The position numbers and the translations under genes are program-made. Of a DNA stretch of 64,000 nt, positions 7,651 through 64,000 are shown piece after piece. The first letter of the stretch is position 1; each line of letters opens with the position of its first letter. The notes beneath the pieces were generated by a model, which was given only the letters and a program-made list of their open reading frames with translations, made no database searches and had not been told where the DNA came from. Source of the stretch: Liolophura sinensis (taxonomy: Eukaryota > Mollusca > Polyplacophora > Chitonida > Chitonidae). The DNA lies in assembly GCF_032854445.1 (NCBI RefSeq), contig NC_088298.1, positions 3,778,160-3,842,159 on the forward strand, read 5' to 3'.

Positions 7651-7988
7651 CGCTGACGTTCTTCTGGTTACTGACATGATGACCTACTCATGTGTGGAAG
7701 TTTGAATGAGTAGATCCTTGTAACAAAGTATGAATGAAAAAGAATGGTAGGTGTAATTGTTGGCAAGATGTTTGAAAGGATGTTCAGAGGAATTATTTGC
7801 CTGACCAGAACATTGAATTAAAATTATGAAAGAGTCGTAAAATAAGGAGACAGAAGAAAGGCTGCAGGCAAAGTCATAGTTAATAAGTACAGCTTTACAT
7901 GAGGGACAGGTTTTATTTTCATGTCATGCCTAACTGCTTGTGCCTTGTCTGCATATGTTTTATGACTGCATTTGACAAGGTGGCTACC

Positions 7989-9513
7989 ATAATACCCCTA
8001 AATATGATACGTGTGTCACAAAAAAGCATAACCGTAATACCCCTAAATATGATACCTGTGCCAGAAAAAAACATAACCGTAATGCACCTAAATATGATAC
8101 GTGTGCCACAAAAAAGCATAACCGTAATACCCCTAAATATGATACGTGTGCCATAAAAAAGCATAACCGTAATACCCCTAAATATGATACGTGTGCCAGA
8201 AAAAAGCATAGCCGTAATACCCCTAAATATGATACGTGTGCCATAAAAAAGCATAACCGTAATACCCCTAAATATGATACGTGTGCCAGAAAAAAGCATA
8301 ACCGTAATACCCCTAAATATGATACGTGTGCCAGAAAAAAGCATAACCGTAATACCCCTAAATATGATACCTGTGCCAGAAAAAAGCATAACCGTAATAC
8401 CCCTAAATATGATACGTGTGCCAGAAAAAAGCATAACCGTAATACCCCTAAATATGATACGTGTGCCAGAAAAAAGCATAACCGTAATACCCCTAAATAT
8501 GATACGTGTGCCATAAAAAAGCATAACCGTAATCAACTAAATATGATACCTGTGCCAGAAAAAAGCATAATTGTAATGCACCAAAATATGATACGTGTGC
8601 CAGAAAAAGCATAATTGTAATGCACCAAAAAAGTGATACGTGTGCCAGAAAAAAGCATAACCGTAATACCCCTAAATATGATACGTGTGCCATAAAAAAG
8701 CATAACCGTAATGCACCTAAATATGATACGTGTGCCAGAAAAAAGCATAGCCCTACTGCACCTAAATGATACGTGTGCCAGAAAAAAGCATAACCGTACT
8801 GCACCTAAATGAATCGTGTGCCAGAAAAAAGCATAACCGTAATACCCCTAAATATGATACGTGTGCCAGAAAAAAGCATAACCGTAATACCCCTAAATAT
8901 GATACCTGTGCCAGAAAAAAGCATAACTGTAATACCCCTAAATATGATACGTGTGCCATAAAAAAGCATAACCGAAATACCCCTAAATATGATACGTGTG
9001 CCAGAAAAAGCATAACCATAATACCCCCTAAATATGATACGTGTGCCAGAAAAAGCATAACCGTAATACTCCTAAATATGATACCTGTGCCAGAAAAAAG
9101 CATAACCGTAATACCCCTAAATATTATACCTGTGCCAGAAAAAAGCATAACCGTAATACCCCTAAATATGATACCTGTGCCAGAAAAAGCATAACCGTAA
9201 TACTCCTAAATATGATACCTGTGCCAGAAAAAAGCATAACCGTAATACCCCTAAATATGATACCTGTGCCAGAAAAAAGCATAACCGTAATACCCCTAAA
9301 TATGATACGTGTGCCGTAAAAAAGCATAACCGAAATACCCCTAAATATGTGCCAGAAAAGCATAACCGTAATACCCCCTAAATATGATACGTGTGCCAGA
9401 AAAAGCATAACCGGAATACTCCTAAATATGATACCTGTGCCAGAAAAAAGCATAACCGTAATACCCCTAAATATGATACCTGTGCCAGAAAAAAGCATAA
9501 CCGTAATGCACCT
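7989..9513. repeat. 45-bp minisatellite, about 34 copies
   Basis: Unit CCCTAAATATGATACGTGTG followed by CCAGAAAAAAGCATAACCGT and AATAC. Variants: GATACC for GATACG, CCATAA or CCACAA for CCAGAA, and loss of one A from the A6 tract. Because 45 is divisible by three, long open frames appear on both strands (repeats of 15 residues); they track the unit length, not selection for protein. Confidence 0.95.
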
Positions 9514-10712
9514 TAATATTAGTAGATTGTCAATGAATTTAAAGCTCTGTCATACACCTTTGTGGGGCCTTGGTGGCATATAAGCAGTTAGTGCTGCTTG
9601 CTAGCATTTATTGAAGACCACTCTTTTCCACAAAGATGGTGTGTATATCTGTTCCTCAATTAAGTAATTTGCCAGATGTCAGTGGTTTATGCCAGAGGCT
9701 CTGTTTTCATCCATCCTTTAATCTTACAGCCATAGTGTTTGTGGAAAAATGGAGTTTGGATTAAGCAACAGTCAATCAAGTAAATAATGTGTTAAATATC
9801 TGCAGCATCTAGAGTGCGTGTTACTTTATACAGTATTGTATTTGATTTGCACCCGCTAGAGCCTCATGTTAGGGATATCTTCACCTGGAGATCTCCACTA
9901 AATACTGTCCAGGTTAACCATGCTTATAATTGGGGCTCAGTTGGGGAAATAGTGACGTTTAGGCTGTCTACAGATGGTTGCCACCCTGTAGAGCCTCCTG
10001 ACAGAAGCAACTTCATCTGAACATAGATCTTTACTAAAGGTTGTCCAGGTTAAACTGGCCTTTGACAGGGGCTCTAAAGGGGTGGGGATTCCCATGATTC
10101 CAAGTTGAAGATAGGATCATGTTGATTGGTATCTCATACAGGTTGAAGAGTGTTAAATATTATTAAAATGTACAGCAGAAAGAGTAAAACCAGGACAATG
10201 TTGACTGTGAATCCAGCTTGGATTTTATCCTAACAATTCATGCAAATGCTTAAAAAGTAGCAAATTACACACCCTCTAGCACCATGGCTTAATTAGAATT
10301 AGGTATTAAAAAAAAAAAATGCCAAGGCAGTGGTTTGGTGACACAAATGTCATTAACATGCACATCTGACAGCCTTAGAGTTTGATGTGATTTGATTCTG
10401 AGGAGCAGACCATGGTTAATTAATAAGCTGACAATCCTATCTGCTGAAACACAAGGTACAGGTTCAATCCCAAGCGTGGACACAGACACAGAACTTCCAC
10501 ATTTCTTCGTTCTTATTGTGTGCGATGGTCATATAGTGACAGTTAGAAGTTGATGGCATTAGTGTGACCGTTTTTATCCTCTTGTTTTCGTTAAAAACCA
10601 CTTGTCTTCCCCCTGATCAGTGTGGGATGGACTAGTCTGTATATATAATGTGGGAAAGTGCATCAGTAATTTGCCGAATGTTGAAGGTTTACATTGGCCC
10701 ATTATGTTGTAA

Positions 10713-11993
<1,281 letters not shown>

Positions 11994-21790: not shown

Positions 21791-24700
21791 GTAAGTGTCC
21801 TGTCTTTGTAACAGTGTTTAATGCACAGTTGTAGAAACGGATTTAGAATTTACTGTAATGATTTTCCTCCGATGCCTTACAACAACAACAACATCACATG
21901 TTACGCGTGGTTCGAAAATGAAATTCGGGAAGATCTTTTAATCAATTTGGACATTCTTAGACTAAAGCTGGGGTTCTTGCGGATATCACGAGGCAGAGGG
22001 TTTGTCGTCAGTTCACTGAAGAACATGGTTTTCACAATGAGCATTAGAGAAGCCGGTTAACAGAAACCTCGACTTTACAACTCACATCTGTTGAGTGGCC
22101 CTAGCACCAGTAGCACTAGAAGGCTTCATTTGTCATTCATTATAGCCCCTTCCACCCACCCACCCACCCAAACCCAAACCCAACCCATAGGCTTTATCGA
22201 GCTAGTGTAACCTAGGCTTAATTTCAATTAAATAAAAGGTTCAACAGTTTCTGATATTTACCTGCCTCAGTTGTTGAATTCAAAAACCTGTTAGGTCCAT
22301 ACCGGAGGACACTTTGCTGAAGGAAGTAGGCCTTTAAATCCACGTTAAAACGGTGGCACACACCAATTTCTGCTGTGCATTAAATATAATAGGACCCTAC
22401 TTACCACTTCTGCAAATGTAAGTCCATTCCTGAGTCATAATGTTGTAAAATTCACAGAAATATTTAATTCTTGCTCGTCAAAAAAACTTTGTGCTGTCAT
22501 GGTGAGTCGGATGTATTGAAATCTTGGAATCGCATGCCAAAAGATATGGAAATCAATCTTACAACACAACCATGCAACCAGTTTTAAATGACAACTTTAG
22601 TAATGCTATCCTAAGTCATCATGGATGCAGTACAATTTGCCCAGTGAGTCGCGCCAGAAAAATTAATTCTAAAGGCTCCAGTCAAGGCTTGCGGCTATTT
22701 CGTGCACATCTGCTTCGTTAACCATGTTTTCTGCCCCTGGACTCGGATACAATCCGTATTTTCAATACACCCGAAGCATCGCGTGTGCACACTGCAATTT
22801 TGAAGAGAGAAAAGGCAACACTTACCAAGTTTTCTGCATATAACTAGTCTGAAATTGATTAAAACTTGAAGGAGCGATAGAAGAGACCCATCCCTTCTCA
22901 GGGATAAAAGTACACCTCAACATTTAATTTAATTGAACTACCTAGGCTTCAGTTAGTGTACTGCAATATATAGGGCATAAGGTTTATAGTTCTGGCTTGA
23001 CACAGTCATATTATTGTGCAGGTGACCACCTGCCAACATGACGAATAGGTTTCGTTTTAACATGGGGCAATGGTCTTTTGAGGCAGGCAAAGGAGGAGTG
23101 CTTAGTGTGCAGATTTGTGTTGGTTGTACTTCACAGGAGACACGAGAAAAGTGACTGAGGTGCAAGTTGGCAGAACTCTGGAACTACTCCAAGAAAATCA
23201 AGTAGAATGTTGTGTAGCTCTACCCGTTTCTGTTTCTGAAAAAGTTTCCCAGCATGTGACATACAAATGCAGTATGTATTGGTGGGAGATCCCTGGTCGT
23301 CAACAAGTGTTACACAGCGCAAAGTACAGCGCAAACATTGTCGTCAATGCCTCACAACCTTATGCATTGTGAAAATCTACAGATTTGCTGTCCTAGGGTG
23401 ATTTTGAATCTGCACCTTATGCTTTTTAGTAATTGAAACGCAAGTCATTCAAACCACTAGACCACCCCACTCCCACATATGTGCTGTGTTTTAGCCAGTT
23501 ATAAATGTTTATTGTTTATTTTTCAGAACTGGTGGACAAATGTATAGGACACAGAATTCATATCATCATGAAAAATGACAAAGAAATTGTTGGAACGCTT
23601 TTGGGCTTTGATGATTTTGTCAGTATCCTTTTGATTTAAAGCATTTGGTAATACATAGATTTTACAACATTATTGTTTTCTGCTTTGTGTGTGTGTGTGT
23701 GTGTTTTTTTTTTCTTATTGTTAATCCACACCAATTTACTTCATTGTTTTGTGGGCAGAACAAATATTTTTCTAATGTCTTCAGAGGATATAAAAATAAA
23801 GCTTAAAATAGTTCTAATTTGTGGGAAATATGGACTGTCTTAGCAATTCTTTCCCTGTTAAAGATGTATTCATTTGATGAGAAAGCTTTGAAAAACAGGA
23901 AAATCATGAAAATATCCAGAATGGACAAAATAAAAAGGTGGAATTTCTGTTTTATTTCTTATTCAACTTCTTGCAATTTTTTTGTGTCGGTTCATCTGTA
24001 AAATACAAAAATAAAATTGATGTTGTCTAAACGGCTATATGAATTTGCATATTTAAAGCCAGTACTCTTGTCAATTTGAGTGCATCTTGGGGTAAGGAAA
24101 TTTGTCAGATAATTTACAACAAAGTACCACAAGCATATGATCTCTGAACTGTTACTTTGCATAATGCACGTTTTTTGTCCACCTACATACAAGGGGTACA
24201 TTGTATATTGCGAACCTCCTTGGTTGAGTTGCACAATGACTCAGGATTCTCAAACCAATGTGATGGTTGTGAGTTCAAGTCCCCACATGAACCCCCCCCC
24301 CCTTCCCCCAACCACCGTATAAAAGTGAAATACTCTTCAGTAAGGCATAAAATAACAAGCAAAGAGATAAGTAAATAAATTCTACCTTAATGCTCCCCAT
24401 CACTATATAAGTTAAATATTTCTGAGTACAGTCAGCATAGAACACCAATCAACCAAATAAATAAGCTTTATAATGCTTCAGTTATAACAGAGTATCAACT
24501 GGTTACTAAAAATTCGACCACAAAGGAGCATTTTTGGAGGCAAATAAATGTCATAAATAACTTTTACATTATCCCAGTAGGATATCATCCCACCTTCCAA
24601 GCACCTCCCAAAGCACCTTTCTAAAATCAGTAAAACTTTCAGAATCTGGAAAAATGAGTAACAGTCATGGACGAAATTTTAGGTCATTTAGGGTAGTTGT

Positions 24701-30621: not shown

Positions 30622-30627
30622 TATAAA
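30622..30627 (+). promoter_or_regulatory. Candidate TATA box of the peptide gene
   Basis: TATAAA in the context agaaTATAAAGTC. A transcription start about 30 bases on would begin a leader exon ending at the donor gtaagt at 30763. Placement is inferred from spacing and from the downstream gene. Confidence 0.4.
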
Positions 30628-30652
30628 GTCTTTGAATAGTATCAAAGTAACG

Positions 30653-30762
30653 GCAACCTTCCACGATTACGGTACCATTCTTCTGTCAGTCTCTGACAAC
30701 AGAACACTTGGTCGCGGGGAGCCGTAAATCCCCATGGACACAGCTCTGCTGAAAATTGCACA
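30653..30762 (+). other. Candidate 5' leader exon of the peptide gene
   Basis: Ends at TTGCACA followed by the strong donor gtaagt. The start is estimated from the TATA box. It holds an ATG at 30734 that, if spliced to the acceptor at 31194, opens a 13-codon upstream reading frame closing ten bases before the main start. A different leader exon ending at the donor gtaagg at 31015 is possible. Confidence 0.35.
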
Positions 30763-31194
30763 GTAAGTATACATATATGTTTCGTTCAAAATAAATGTGT
30801 AATGGCAAGATTTTTTTTTATCCGGGTAGGATAGATCAATAAACTATACAAATTGGTAAGCAGTTGGTGTTTAAAGTATATAAAGATGCCTGCCTCTGAT
30901 TTTCGGCTCTCACTTTTTGTGGGACCATAGTGACGGTATGCAGTCGACGAAGCTCACCTGGACAACTGTCGTCCACCAATATGGCGAGATTCCCTGTGCG
31001 CCAAATGCAAGTGGTAAGGTTGGTTACTTAATTGCTAAAGGTCGGTGGGTGTAGCCTTCAAGGTGTAGGCACCCGGATACGCCCTTCAGCCAATCAAAAT
31101 CAAATCAAATATTCTATACACTCATCTCATGGTTGCACAAAATATCATACTGAACACTTTGGCTTTAAGTTTAATAAGGTTGTTACTTTTTCAG

Positions 31195-31335
31195 GATTTA
31201 AATTGACGAACAGGAAGAATGAAATATTTCCGAAGTTTGTTCATCACAATGGTTACCATGCTGGTTTCCATGGCAGTCGGGTTACCTCTGTCTTCGAAGC
31301 AAAAAGTCGTTTCAAACCGCCATATCAACGTACCG
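31195..31335 (+). CDS. Peptide precursor exon with signal peptide
   Basis: Acceptor tttttcag ends at 31194; 24 untranslated bases, then ATG at 31219 and 39 codons to CCG, donor gtgagt at 31336. Encodes the signal peptide and LPLSSKQKVVSNRHINVP. Confidence 0.7.
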
Positions 31336-34300
31336 GTGAGTAATTATTTTGACTTATACAATGTTTTGTTTTCCACGCTGGCTTCCTCTCCGGCCGTACA
31401 TGGGAAGGTCTGTCAGCAACCTGCTGATGGTGGTGGGTTTCCATTCGGGGCCTGTCCGGTCCCGCCCCCCCCCCCCCCCATAATACTGGCCGCCATTGTG
31501 ATACATACGATGGGGGCCGGCATTATGGTAGGAGGAATTCCGGCAGTCCCCGGAGAAATCCACGATCATCCACAGATTGCTGACAGACCTTTCCATGTGC
31601 GCCCGGAGAGATAGCCAGCATAAGCTGGACTTACAACTGGAGAGGCTCCTGGGTCATTGTGCTCCTCTAGTACGTGAACCACACGACCTTATATTTACTG
31701 ACTTATTTGATTGGTGTTTTACGCCGTACTCAAAAATACTTTACTTATACGACGGCGGCCGGTATTGGTGAGAGGAAAGCTGACAGAACCCGGGGGTTTA
31801 TAAAATTTAATGCTAAACTTATTTTAATGAACATGATTACCATGAACGAAAACTGCATATGACTTCGTCAAGTTTTACAAAGCATGTTTTGAAAGCATGT
31901 TGTGAAAACTTCAGGTCATTTTTTAAACGTACACCATGACGTTAAAATACATGTTGACAATGGCGTCGGTATTTCAGAACAAACAAAATCGACCACAAGA
32001 ATGGATTAAACATGAGTGAAAATATCACACTTGCACATATACATGCTTGCATTCGTATAGTACGTCTGAAATGCATTTCTCTTTGAAGAGCTTGGTATAT
32101 CGTCTTAAAATGTACAAAGGCCACTGTCTGTAAAGATGTAGTGGGTATATATAACGAGACCTCGCTTGCTAAACTGGACATAGTGCTGGTCTCAGCAACT
32201 AAATGTATCAGGCCTTTGACCAGTGAGATCGCGTGCTCGAATCCAGCTTTTGCTGCAACATTTGCAGCTTCAGGTCAGGAGGTTTGTCAGGAAAGGTCAG
32301 GAAAGGCCGTGTGCTCCGTTTCCCCTCACCCTTGAACCTGACAGTCATTGTAAAACATTCTTAAGTTTTCGGCGTTAAACACCATTGAAATAAATAACTG
32401 TAGTGTACGCCTACATACTTTCAGTGCACAATTTACTTTACGCGAACAGTATACAATTTACTTTACGTGAACAGTGCACAGTTTACTTTACGCGACCAGT
32501 GCACAATTTACTGTACGTAACCAATGCACAATTTACTTTACATGAAGGTAAACTCTAGCTTCATATGACAACACATAATTTAATATAAACTGTGAAGGGA
32601 GAAGCACAGTGTCCAGACACGGTGAAGTAAGATGTAATGGCCAATTACATAAAACCAACTCCTATCACAGTCAGAGGCGATCTACAAATACCAATAATCT
32701 CATCCGCTCCGCTGCTGATATCGTTCAATCAAAAAAAATTGATTGTCGGAGTGATGCTCCAATGTATTCATTTATTATAACACAATATTCTGTCGCATTC
32801 ATTTTTGATTAATTTTTCAGTCTTGAACTGTACGGTTCACGACTGTGTAGGCGTTATTGTCTACAACTGTCTATCTGCGCGTGTATTATTTTTTATTCTG
32901 TTGTTCCTGTCGTGAAACCCTTGGCTGTATATGTATCTATCGCCGTTAAGTACTACACACTCTGCAACAGATATATCATATAGTACCGTGGCCAAAGGCC
33001 TATATATAGTGGGTCTCGGAGAAAAACAGGCATATGAACTGTATAGCATGCATAGCACACCAGTGAATTGGTGAGTTCTTCCATTCGCCTGGAACATTCC
33101 TTTGCATGATTCCGTCATAATTTCTAAATTTACAAGTATTTACTTTGTTAACTCTTTTATGTAAGCATGTACATGTATGATATATACTTGGGGTTTAAAG
33201 TCGTGCTTAACAATTTTTCAGTCATATGACGACGAGGAGTCAGTAGGTGTGTGCACACTTATATACTTTGTCTTCTTGTGACAGGGCGCGTCCATGCCAC
33301 TAGCATCATTCCGAAGACACCAGACATGGCACCCCACAAAGTCACGTTATACCGACACCGGGACGACCAGTCCTGTTTCCTTGCTCAGGTCTCTAACAAA
33401 TGCCATTTTTAAAGTCTTTGGTATGACTCGACCCGGATTTGATCCCGGGTCTCCCGACTTCGAGGCGGACGCTCTTATCATTAAACCGCCGAAGCTGTCT
33501 CTTAATTCTGTTATATTGACCCGGAACGTCTATTATTTTTGACGGATAGTCTACATACCAATGTCTCTTTCAAAGCTTAGATATCAGTGACAGAGAAATG
33601 TATATACCGTTATAACACTGTCACTCAAAAGAAACTCCCTCTATATATATATATATACTTGCATGTTACAGGCCGTGTTGTGGAGCCAGATTGTCTCCCT
33701 TCCCACCCTGACTCTCCGTCGGTACCAGGCCGGACTTCCCCCAAAGAGAAGTCTGCAGACGGTGGACGCTCTTCTCAACATTCCTTTGCACGTGCTCTGT
33801 CGCGCGGGCAGAGCAGTGAGAGGTAAGCCAGGACAATTTGCTTATCGTTTTCATGTATGTGTGTTTTAAAGATGGCGACAACACCTTTTGAGTAAATCAT
33901 TGCACACCATTACATTTTGTTTAAATGTATCTAATTTTGATGAAGGCGTGGTATGGATGGGCGTGTATAAGGGACGTATTAGCTCTAGACGTGTAAGCAT
34001 TTACACCAACAGTTAGAACGATCGTTCTGGAAGTTTTGAGACGGTAATACATGCTTCATTTCGGTCGGAGCCGTGAGACTAATGGCTATGTCAAAATCCA
34101 CAACAGAACACACACAGGTCCTTCATTTATGCAATTTAATTTATAAATTACAATAATGAATTTTATTTATTTATTTAATAATGTATAGCCATAATTTTGT
34201 TCAAAATGGACGACACAGACCACAACTTGACCTGTTGTAATCTCTCTTGATGAAGCTACGTATGTACCTAGTCCTAGCCTACTAAGTTTCAGTTGAAAGC

Positions 34301-36308
34301 AACAATAATTAAGTCCTAAAAAAAAAATGGGACAAAACGGCCTTAAATTTGTGTAGATAGAACTTAGGGGGTCAGAAACTTGAAGTTACTTGGTGAAGCC
34401 ATGTACCAAGTTTAATTAAGTTAAAAAAAATTTTAATTTGACTTCAATTTGTGACGGATTGTGGGGACAGACTGACGGATTAATGGACACATTGTCGGAC
34501 TGACGAATCAGTGGACAGACAGACTGATGGACAGACTTATGGATTTATGGACAGGCAGACTGATGGGAAGACTGGCGGATTGACGTATTGATGGACAGAC
34601 AGTGATGAGCACATGGACGGACTGACGAGTTAATGGACAGACAGAATGATGGAGGGACAGACAGACTGATGGACACACTGACAGACTGACAAACCTAATT
34701 CAGCTTTTAAAGCCATGGTGCCGTATAGAGATGTATTTATAAGTTTCTGTGTTACCTAAACATTAACAGCTGGAACAAACCCCTAACAGGTACATTGACA
34801 AGAAGCTGTATTTCAGCTGTTACCTGTGACCATTTTTCAATGTCGTCGCTACTCTATGCCGAGTCTTACATGAATGTCATAGTTTTGAACTGATGTCATG
34901 TCTGAGCCAATCATCAGCACACTGTGTCGTCACATGACTAGAGTACGAATTGAAAACAAACCGAATTTAAACCAGGTTAGATAAGACGTGAATAAGACTT
35001 TAACATGAACATTGAAAAAATATAGCTTTTAGGAAAGATTTTTTTTCTGGAAAGAGCCTAACCTTCAGATATGATAGTTTCGGTGTCCTATAGTACCTTG
35101 AAAATGGGCAAAAAATCAGCATTTCACCCATTTAGCTCCATGTTATTTATCCTCTCCTGGTCCTTGGGAAGACTAGATAAAAGGGCGGTGGAAATCCGTC
35201 CTGCAACAAGGAGGCACATTACATGCATTTTAACGATTCCTTCGTCGTCATATCACTGAAAAATTGTTAAGTACGATGTTAAACCTCAAGCACTCACTCC
35301 TTGCCCGGGTGCTCAAAGATATGAATTAATTATATGTTGTCACGAACGTTACGCCAGGCGCAAGTTGCGATAACCTCAATAAACGACCCCAATGGACTAT
35401 ACATGCAGCATTTCTGAGAACTATGCCTGTACCCCGCAGTACATAATAGATCGTTTTTATGCTATAAAATTGTGTGGTTTTGCATGGTGGCTATCTTGAT
35501 CTGCAGATACGCATAATTACAAGAATGCTTTTCATATCCAATACAACATGACGGGTTTTGACGAATGTCTTAAGTAATGAGTTTTTACTTCTCTTGACTG
35601 TCCATGAAGGGAAACTCCTGGTTATCTTGACTGCACTAAATACAGGCGTAGCTTACGTTATGTCCGTATAGCGTCGGCGTTTAATGGCATTTAAAGCAAT
35701 GATAAAGTATAAATGTTAGGAGCGATATCTAAAAAAGTACTGCACTGAGTTAATGGTTTACATACATGTAAAGCACAACGCCACGAGGGGGGTGTCCCAT
35801 CGTTGATACGGTGTGCATATTTTTCGCATTTAAAAACAGCAAAAGCGTTTGGTCAGTTAAACAGGGAATATCCCACTTCAGGGTGCAGTAAATGTTTGGT
35901 CAATGTTGCAGGTGTAAGGACTTGAGCCATGCGTACACATTAGACGTTTTAATAATGGCTGAGTGTTCAGCCTACATGGTTGCATGTGGGGTCCATTTAT
36001 TGTGTTCAGAAAATCAGGAAATTATTTTTGAGCAAAACAAAACGTTTTTATACAGGTTTTAGTGTGTGTAATGTGCACTGTATCATGATTCATATAGTTT
36101 TTTTTTATCCAGAAGGTGCCTTATGTTTTAATATAGAACGTTCAGAAATTGAAACAAACGTTTTCCTCAATATAAATATCATTCTTATTCCTTCACAGAG
36201 AGACGAATGAGGAATATCTGTCCTGAGATCCTCAACCGTTCCACGATCGATGCCGAAATGCCCAGAGATCTTCCGAAGAGACGGACGCAAGCTGTGTCGC
36301 TTCACTAA
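31219..36308 (+). CDS. Secreted neuropeptide/hormone-like precursor, family unassigned
   Basis: Three coding exons, 31219-31335, 33672-33822, 36199-36308, join in phases 0 and 1 to a 125-residue protein. Residues 1-21 (MKYFRSLFITMVTMLVSMAVG) are a typical signal peptide: basic start, hydrophobic core, small residues at the cut. There is no membrane segment after it. Residues 55-56 are RR, 64-65 KR, 91-92 RR and 117-119 KRR, i.e. prohormone convertase-type sites. The segment after KR opens SLQTVDALLNIPLHVL and looks amphipathic; two cysteines are at residues 82 and 97. No Gly precedes a dibasic site, so no amidation signal. I do not recognise a named hormone; the segment loosely resembles class B1 GPCR ligands (PTH, CRF/ELH types). 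Acceptors are strong (ttactttttcag, gttacag, ttccttcacag). That it is a real secreted precursor is likely; its function is unknown. Confidence 0.7.
31376..31500 (+). mobile_element. SINE family A, left member of an inverted pair
   Basis: GCTGGCTTCCTCTCCGGCCG, AGGTCTGTCAGCAACCTGCT and a C14 run before CATAATACTGGCCGCC. Confidence 0.85.
31505..31690 (-). mobile_element. SINE family A, right member of an inverted pair
   Basis: Minus orientation: GGCCGGCATTATGGTAGGAG, CCACGATCATCCACAGATTG, AGCCAGCATAAGCTGGAC, GAGGCTCCTGGGTCATTGTG on plus. Confidence 0.85.
31695..31805 (-). mobile_element. SINE tail, family A
   Basis: TTGATTGGTGTTTTACGCCG, CGACGGCGGCCGGTATTGGT and GAACCCGGGGG on plus. Confidence 0.85.
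32190..32397 (+). mobile_element. Diverged SINE with AAATA tail
   Basis: GTGCTCGAATCCAGCTTTTG (B-box-like), a duplicated GGTCAGGAAAGG, CGGCGTTAAACACCATTGAA and AATAAAT tail. Confidence 0.65.
32422..32546 (+). repeat. 25-bp tandem repeat, 5 copies
   Basis: Unit CAGTGCACAATTTACTTTAC plus GCGAA; copies differ at one to four positions. Confidence 0.9.
33180..33505 (-). mobile_element. tRNA-headed SINE, family C
   Basis: Minus strand: TTCGGCGGTTTAATGATAAG head, GATCAAATCCGGG B-box, end in GAAAAATTGTTAAGCACGAC. Confidence 0.8.
33672..33822 (+). CDS. Peptide precursor middle exon
   Basis: 151 bases from AVLWSQIV to GRAVR plus one base; donor gtaagc. Carries the RR and KR cleavage sites, so the short heptapeptide YQAGLPP and the N-terminal half of the main peptide are coded here. 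More GC-rich than flanking intron sequence, which supports coding. Confidence 0.72.
34450..34690 (+). repeat. Degenerate GACAGACTGATGGA repeat
   Basis: Irregular reiterations of GGACAGAC, TGACGGA and TGATGGA over about 240 bases. Confidence 0.8.
35165..35310 (+). mobile_element. SINE 3' half, family B
   Basis: AGATAAAAGGGCGGTGGAAATC through TCACTGAAAAATTGTTAAGT and CACTCACTCC. Confidence 0.82.
35703..35830 (+). repeat. Unnamed dispersed repeat, single copy
   Basis: TAAATGTTAGG, AAAAAAGTACTGCA, TTTACATACATG, AAGCACAACGCCACGAGG, GTGTCCCATCGTTGAT and GTGTGCATA blocks in the same order as at 20195. Confidence 0.6.
36199..36308 (+). CDS. Peptide precursor terminal exon
   Basis: Begins after attccttcacag; completes Glu90, then RRMRNICPEIL to RTQAVSLH and TAA. 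Contains RR and KRR basic sites and the second cysteine. Confidence 0.7.
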
Positions 36309-37121: not shown

Positions 37122-38150
37122 AGAATAACCAATGGAAATGGCTGTACCATAAGAGCTTACGAATGGCCAATTAGCCAATAGATACTCCAGAATGATGAAT
37201 TGAAATGACTGTACCACAAGAGCTCACGAATGGCCAATTAGCCAATAGATACTCCAGATTGATCAATTGAAATGACTGTACCATAAGAGCTCACGAATGG
37301 CCAATTAGCCAATAGATACTCCAGAATGATGAATTGAAATAACTGTACCATAAGAGCTCACGAATGGCCAATTAGCCAATAGATACTCCAGAATGATGAA
37401 TTGAAATAACTATACCATAAGAGCTCACGAATGGCCAATTAGCCAATAGATACTCCGGAATGATCAATTGAAATGACTACCATAAGAGCTCACGAATGGC
37501 CAATTAGCCAATAGATACTCCAGAATGATGAATTGAAATAACTGTACCATAAGAGCTCACGAATGGCCAATTAGTCAATAGATACTCCAGAATGATGAAT
37601 TGAAATGGCTGTACCATAAGAGCTCACGAATGGCCAATTAGCCAATAGATACTCCAGAATGATGAATTGAAATAACTGTACCATAAGAGCTCACGAATGG
37701 CCAATTAGCCAATAGATACTCCGGAATGATCAATTGAAATGACTACCATAAGAGCTCACGAATGGCCAGTTAACCAAGATACTCCAGAATGATCAATTGA
37801 AATGACTGTACCATAAGAGCTCACGAATGGCTAATTAGCCAATAGATACTCCAGAATGACCAATGGAAATGACTATACCAAAAGAGCTAACGAATAACTA
37901 CTGAGTCAATAGATACCCAAGAAAGACGAAAGGAAATGACCACAATAAGAGTTCACGAATGGCTAATTAGCCAATATACATCCTCCAGAATGACCAATGA
38001 AAATGACTATGGAAAGACCTCACGCATGGCTAATTAACCTATAGATAATCCAGAATGGCCAATTGAAATGACCATGCCAACAGACCTCACGAATGGCTAA
38101 TTAGCCAAGAAATAATCCAGAATGACCAATGGAAATGACCGTAGCAACAG
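37122..38150. repeat. 67-bp satellite, about 15 copies
   Basis: Unit GATGAATTGAAATAACTGTA, CCATAAGAGCTCACGAATGG, CCAATTAGCCAATAGATACT, CCAGAAT. The left and middle units are nearly identical; units after about 37860 decay steadily. Confidence 0.93.

Positions 38151-49851: not shown

Positions 49852-64000
<14,149 letters not shown>

Follow-up and report, generated by a model that had tools for sequence, protein, structure and literature searches.

A probable third PDF/cerebrin-type gene with a divergent peptide and a predicted C-terminal extension

The window, which is the whole stretch of 64,000 nucleotides that was analyzed (C4:3778160-3842159 in the G000 genome of 609 Mb and 632 contigs), contains a gene on its + strand whose predicted coding sequence is composed of 31219-31335, 33672-33822 and 36199-36308, with a length of 125 codons and a stop. 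This gene, referred to here as the window gene, has the following features:

31014..31194, + strand: possible 5' untranslated intron (its donor ranks 21st of 4042 and its acceptor 14th of 3680).
31219..31335, + strand: coding exon 1, with the predicted signal peptide at about 31219-31281 and then the start of the propeptide; it ends in phase 0.
33672..33822, + strand: coding exon 2, with 24 propeptide residues, Lys-Arg, the putative PDF-type peptide, Gly-Arg and Ala-Val-Arg.
33744..33749, + strand: predicted Lys-Arg cleavage site that precedes the PDF-type peptide.
33750..33806, + strand: predicted mature peptide SLQTVDALLNIPLHVLCRA (amide), residues 66-84, with a putative C-terminus.
33807..33812, + strand: Gly-Arg in RAGR (Arg at P4), a putative amidation and cleavage signal.
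36199..36308, + strand: exon 3, with the C-terminal extension, RR and KRR sites and the stop codon.

Several other features are found in the window. On the + strand there are ubiquitin-conjugating enzyme exons at 10857-11993 (Pfam UQ_con with an E of 1.5e-38 for one of the nine frames that were scanned; position assigned by eye, UBE2E-like), an LSM-domain exon at 23529-23633 that looks LSM5-like by eye, and an Arfaptin-domain exon at 59632-59808 (best E of the whole frame 7e-39), around which further exons at ~58.6-63.4 kb give an ICA1-like appearance, also by eye. Two tandem arrays are present, one at 7986-9519 with 34 copies of a 45-bp unit and several open frames, and one at 37122-38143 with ~15 copies of a 67-bp unit, which lies shortly 3' of the window gene. 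Rfam (gathering threshold) and tRNA scans across the window gave no hits.

The initial annotation described a three-exon gene, and its junctions 31335/33672 and 33822/36199 can indeed be found in the sequence; their phases agree, and translation from the ATG at 31219 yields 125 residues. Its splice sites had been called strong, which is correct for both donors (scores of 11.4 and 10.85, ranks 4 and 6 of the 4042 GT sites in the window) and for the exon 3 acceptor (rank 9 of 3680 AG sites), but the exon 2 acceptor is only moderate because it ranks 132 of 3680; all splice-site scores come from generic matrices. A rival acceptor located 57 nt inside exon 2 (after 33728) keeps the frame and scores 7.9, versus 7.3 for the one used. 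The acceptor at 33672 is favoured because the acceptors of two other genes in this genome, A and B (described below), sit equally far from their Lys-Arg. The acceptor ending at 31194, taken with the donor at 31014, points to an intron in the 5'UTR, and therefore 30622-31335 is probably not a single exon.

The exons had also been described as clearly more GC-rich than the introns. This applies to exon 2, whose 60% GC is reached by 0.3% of 151-bp stretches, and weakly to exon 3 (51%, reached by 6.5% of stretches), but it fails for coding exon 1, which has 44% GC versus 42% in intron 1 and which 26% of stretches equal. The GC content of the coding sequence by codon position (1/2/3) is 0.53/0.44/0.60. 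A genome search with the precursor (E up to 10) gave no match beyond its own three exons, and the exon 3 region, searched at E up to 1, gave no second copy, only its own exon.

Analysis of the protein sequence supports the earlier proposal of a secreted peptide precursor. Residues 7-18 have a mean hydropathy of 2.2, compared with 1.6 for the best stretch elsewhere, which by hydropathy only fits a signal-peptide start, and the basic sites RR55, KR64, RR91 and KRR116 are all present. Further sites are found at RAGR83-86 and RERR89-92. A PDB sequence search with the precursor gave two chance-level matches only (E 0.49 and 2.3), and an AlphaFold2 model from the single sequence had a mean pLDDT of 52 and was set aside.

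Where the initial annotation could not match the precursor to a named one, the peptide that starts directly after the dibasic KR64-65, reading SLQTVDALLNIP, groups with the PDF/cerebrin family, of which two more typical members with the same arrangement of exons are encoded in this genome. The peptide resembles the oyster cerebrin/PDF sequence NLGTVDSLYNLP. The published molluscan peptides of this type are given as NLGTVDSLYNLPDLLYR-amide in oyster (PMC4200219), NAGTIDSLYNLPDLFAA-amide in scallop (PMC5996578) and NGGTADTLYNIPDLMHI-amide in Biomphalaria (PMC5455113), and sequences of arthropod PDF and PDH were taken from PMC4182629 and PMC3749230. The comparison set contained 47 peptides, 8 of them PDF-type, that were hand-chosen from five papers, and the target was the precursor minus its signal peptide. 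The three molluscan cerebrin/PDF peptides took the top three places among the 47, with 0, 0 and 1 of 1000 shuffles as good. Next came an opioid-like peptide with a p of 0.055. Four of the five arthropod peptides gave p values of 0.07-0.11, and the fifth was outside the best 16 of the 47 (the 16th had a p of 0.30). Other neuropeptide families in the set were considered and rejected, as their best p was only 0.055.

In a profile of nine published PDF peptides the precursor ranked first of 2192 sequences (itself and 2191 pieces of the window) with an E of 0.37, the open frame containing exon 2 came second and the first unrelated piece had an E of 1.0; by the best single stretch, the precursor and the first unrelated piece were level. 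The first 12 positions score 31.3 against a matrix of the molluscan cerebrins, which is the top place in the window and was equalled in 3 of 100 Markov windows. When 17 ungapped positions were scored against the molluscan matrix, the result was second in the window and at chance level (75 of 100 shuffles as good). Taken from the published peptides alone, the PDF/cerebrin identity is suggestive.

In the same genome, a search with the oyster peptide and its basic flanks led to contig C11, where two places (E 0.6 and 1.1) lie 10 kb apart; for both we built gene models from sequence alone:

Gene A, minus strand: exon 1 at C11:145740-145615 and exon 2 at 144685-144548; 87 residues, ending in KR-NRGTVDALLNLPYLRYI-GR-stop.
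Gene B, minus strand: exon 1 at C11:164486-164367 and exon 2 at 154669-154529; 86 residues, ending in KR-NSGTVDAMLNIPDLNKI-GRR-stop.

Exon 1 was chosen from three candidates in A and two in B by a scan that demanded a hydrophobic start and a phase-0 donor, and because phase 0 was required, the exon 1 phase of A and B is not independent evidence. The acceptor of exon 2 is such evidence: in A, in B and in the window gene it lies 72 nt (24 codons) before the Lys-Arg, in phase 0, and this acceptor is the best of the open frame in both A (12.5) and B (8.8). When each precursor was compared alone with the profile of published peptides, the values were 1.4e-9 for B, 2e-6 for A and 1.7e-4 for the window gene. 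Aligned with exon 2 of either A or B, exon 2 of the window gene reaches a score of 49, which none of 2000 shuffles matched, and BLASTP between the full precursors gives 2e-4 with A and 1e-4 with B. After A and B were added to the profile, the window precursor had an E of 0.011 among 2192 sequences, and the first unrelated one 1.3.

The core [TLI]-[VIA]-[DN]-[STA]-[LM]-[YL]-[NG]-[LI]-P at positions 4-12 is found in the window gene as TVDALLNIP. Ala at position 7 of the peptide occurs in A and B and is absent from the nine published peptides. A degenerate DNA pattern for TVDA[LIMF][LF]N[LIMF]P has three matches in 609 Mb, which are A, B and the window gene, and its reversed control has none in the same 609 Mb; the pattern was written after seeing the three genes, and ~0.08 chance matches are estimated for even base use. 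Other features set the window gene apart. Its first residue is Ser where A, B and all nine published peptides have Asn, and Gln takes the place of Gly or Glu at position 3. When the genome was searched with the oyster peptide or with exon 2 of A, both A and B were listed and the window gene was not. The likeness of the window gene to PDF/cerebrin spans only ~14 residues, and the propeptides of the three genes have little in common beyond I-x-S-L. In a Pfam scan of the window precursor with E up to 10, which included PF06324 (pigment-dispersing hormone), no match was found. A and B had no significant Pfam match either and neither was recognised as PDF, so PF06324 has no power to separate the window gene from them.

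One could argue that the window gene encodes a secreted precursor from some unrelated or novel family of peptides and that its PDF likeness is coincidental, given that the likeness is short, that a Pfam match is absent and that the profile of published peptides is not significant for the window. Such a coincidence would have to extend to an exon phase and a 72-nt spacing equal to those of A and B and to a motif that occurs at just three places in 609 Mb, each of them in an exon of this kind, and we regard it as very improbable. The shared 72-nt phase-0 acceptor, together with a motif that matches only these three genomic places, leads us to the best explanation, in which the window gene is very probably a divergent third paralog of the PDF/cerebrin family whose exon 3 would be read as an extension.

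A possible origin of the extension can be seen at the end of exon 2. Past the Gly-Arg codons of the window gene, a donor-like site that scores 10.9 follows after 10 nt. A has a weak one (6.4) after 8 nt and B another (6.7) after 14 nt. Sites as strong as these two occur in ~3-5% of 16-nt stretches, and a score of 10 or more in 0.3%. The frame of the window gene has no stop after Gly-Arg, continues with AVR and then splices into exon 3. Most simply, exon 3 is perhaps a former 3'UTR exon that was made coding by the loss of a stop; the opposite order, with stops gained in A and B, is also conceivable. An ancestral intron just past the peptide would then be a 3'UTR intron in A and B and a coding junction in the window gene where, since the stop after Gly-Arg is missing, the frame crosses the shared junction into exon 3. 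The recruitment of exon 3 would add ~36 residues with new basic sites.

The coding sequence of A and B finishes in exon 2, and the unspliced frame of the window gene is open for a further stretch. This would also suit a PDF paralog that ends in exon 2 (to AVRGKPGQFAYRFHVCVF and a stop) and keeps exon 3 outside the protein. The ranks of the donor (6 of 4042) and of the exon 3 acceptor (9 of 3680) speak against this, as do the donor-like sites that A and B have at the corresponding position, and we consider such an ending improbable.

Exon 3 was also examined as a possible second, degenerate copy of PDF. The stretch NRSTIDA (36234-36254) can be aligned with NRGTVDA of A, yet 41 of 2000 shuffles were as good (98 of 2000 for B), and against the published peptides the shuffles as good were 0.9% for scallop, 4.7% for oyster and 39% for Biomphalaria, and the copy was rejected. 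An inner repeat in the propeptide of the window gene was likewise rejected, with 34% of shuffles as good. A separate observation is that 16 nt of exon 3 (36232-36247) are the exact reverse complement of a stretch that codes for part of the peptide in gene A (C11 ~144.59 kb). In 300 Markov shuffles matches reached at most 14 nt, and the 16-nt match was noticed post hoc.

Reading the window gene as a third paralog that extends into exon 3, a processing route can be proposed. The precursor would enter the secretory pathway and be cut at KR64-65 and after RAGR, the Gly-Arg of which is internal and monobasic. An Arg at P4, as in RAGR, is a feature of furin-type sites. The Arg would then be trimmed and the Gly turned into an amide, giving SLQTVDALLNIPLHVLCRA-NH2 of ~19 residues, a peptide whose first 12 residues resemble the published cerebrin/PDF peptides and those of genes A and B.

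Whether this peptide works as a PDF is another matter. Because Asn-1 is lost and the amidation site is purely monobasic, there is room for a gene derived from PDF/cerebrin that has no working PDF peptide, either a decaying copy or a reprocessed one in which cleavage at RERR or RR gives a longer, non-amidated peptide. The loss of the C-terminal half, the absence of a stop after Gly-Arg and an unusual Cys would agree with such a copy. A decaying gene is harder to reconcile with three exons open in phase, strong donors, a GC-rich exon 2 and a high GC3, and all nine core residues are intact; we find this explanation rather unlikely, and more probable than an ending in exon 2.

If the window gene is a working paralog, its amidated peptide may act on a class-B (secretin-type) GPCR of the PDF type. 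In cockroach clock cells PDF acts partly via cAMP (PMC4182629), cerebrin alters the feeding motor pattern of Aplysia and PDF controls circadian locomotor rhythms in Drosophila (PMC4772807). For lophotrochozoan receptors, a PDF/cerebrin group and a separate 'PDF-like' group are listed (PMC8557429). Both ends of the window peptide are changed, which makes an altered choice of receptor plausible. A fuller and doubtful scenario is that a PDF/cerebrin duplicate lost its stop, turned a former 3'UTR exon into coding sequence and gained a new peptide at its C-terminus as well as a PDF variant that contains Cys and uses receptors differently, for instance as a ligand of the lophotrochozoan 'PDF-like' class-B group (PMC8557429).

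PDF/cerebrin is a well-known family of Bilateria, and among molluscs its presence has been reported for each of the eight class-level taxa (PMC6425005); what appears to be undescribed is the divergent paralog with its predicted C-terminal extension. None of the open-licence main texts that were searched contains the strings DALLNIP, TVDALLN and LLNIPLHV from its peptide or TVDAMLN, and strings of typical PDF/cerebrin members do occur in the same literature. Homology searches miss copies like this one, as is seen from Pfam, which failed to recognise any of the three genes. Three PDF-type genes in one genome, one of them altered at both ends of its peptide and perhaps extended by stop loss, would offer a case in which to follow how a neuropeptide switches receptors after duplication.

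Comparison with known systems shows what is kept and what is altered. With the molluscan cerebrin/PDF-like precursors the window gene shares the T-x-D-x-L-x-N-[LI]-P core and a putative Gly-basic amidation signal, whereas it has Ser for Asn-1, Gln for Gly-3 and Leu for Tyr-9, does not contain Pro-Asp-Leu, has a longer and different C-terminal half with a Cys, and has a precursor extended by an extra exon. With arthropod PDH/PDF (NSELINSLLGLPKVMNDA-amide, and the krill PDH-like NSGTINSMLGLPRTYNLRRMMMHA-amide) it shares the length class and the [LM]-L-x-[LI]-P core, and their Ala-amide end is predicted for the window gene too. The arthropod peptides have Asn at position 6 where the window gene has Asp, the window gene is without Asn-1, and this similarity alone is not significant. 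With A and B it shares a predicted signal-peptide exon 1, TVDA[LM]LN[LI]P, Gly-Arg and a donor-like site at most 14 nt later. A and B stop right after GR or GRR and keep Asn-1, whereas the window gene carries LHVLCRA before its Gly-Arg, a stretch with a Cys that exceeds its counterparts in those genes by two residues, and reads on into exon 3.
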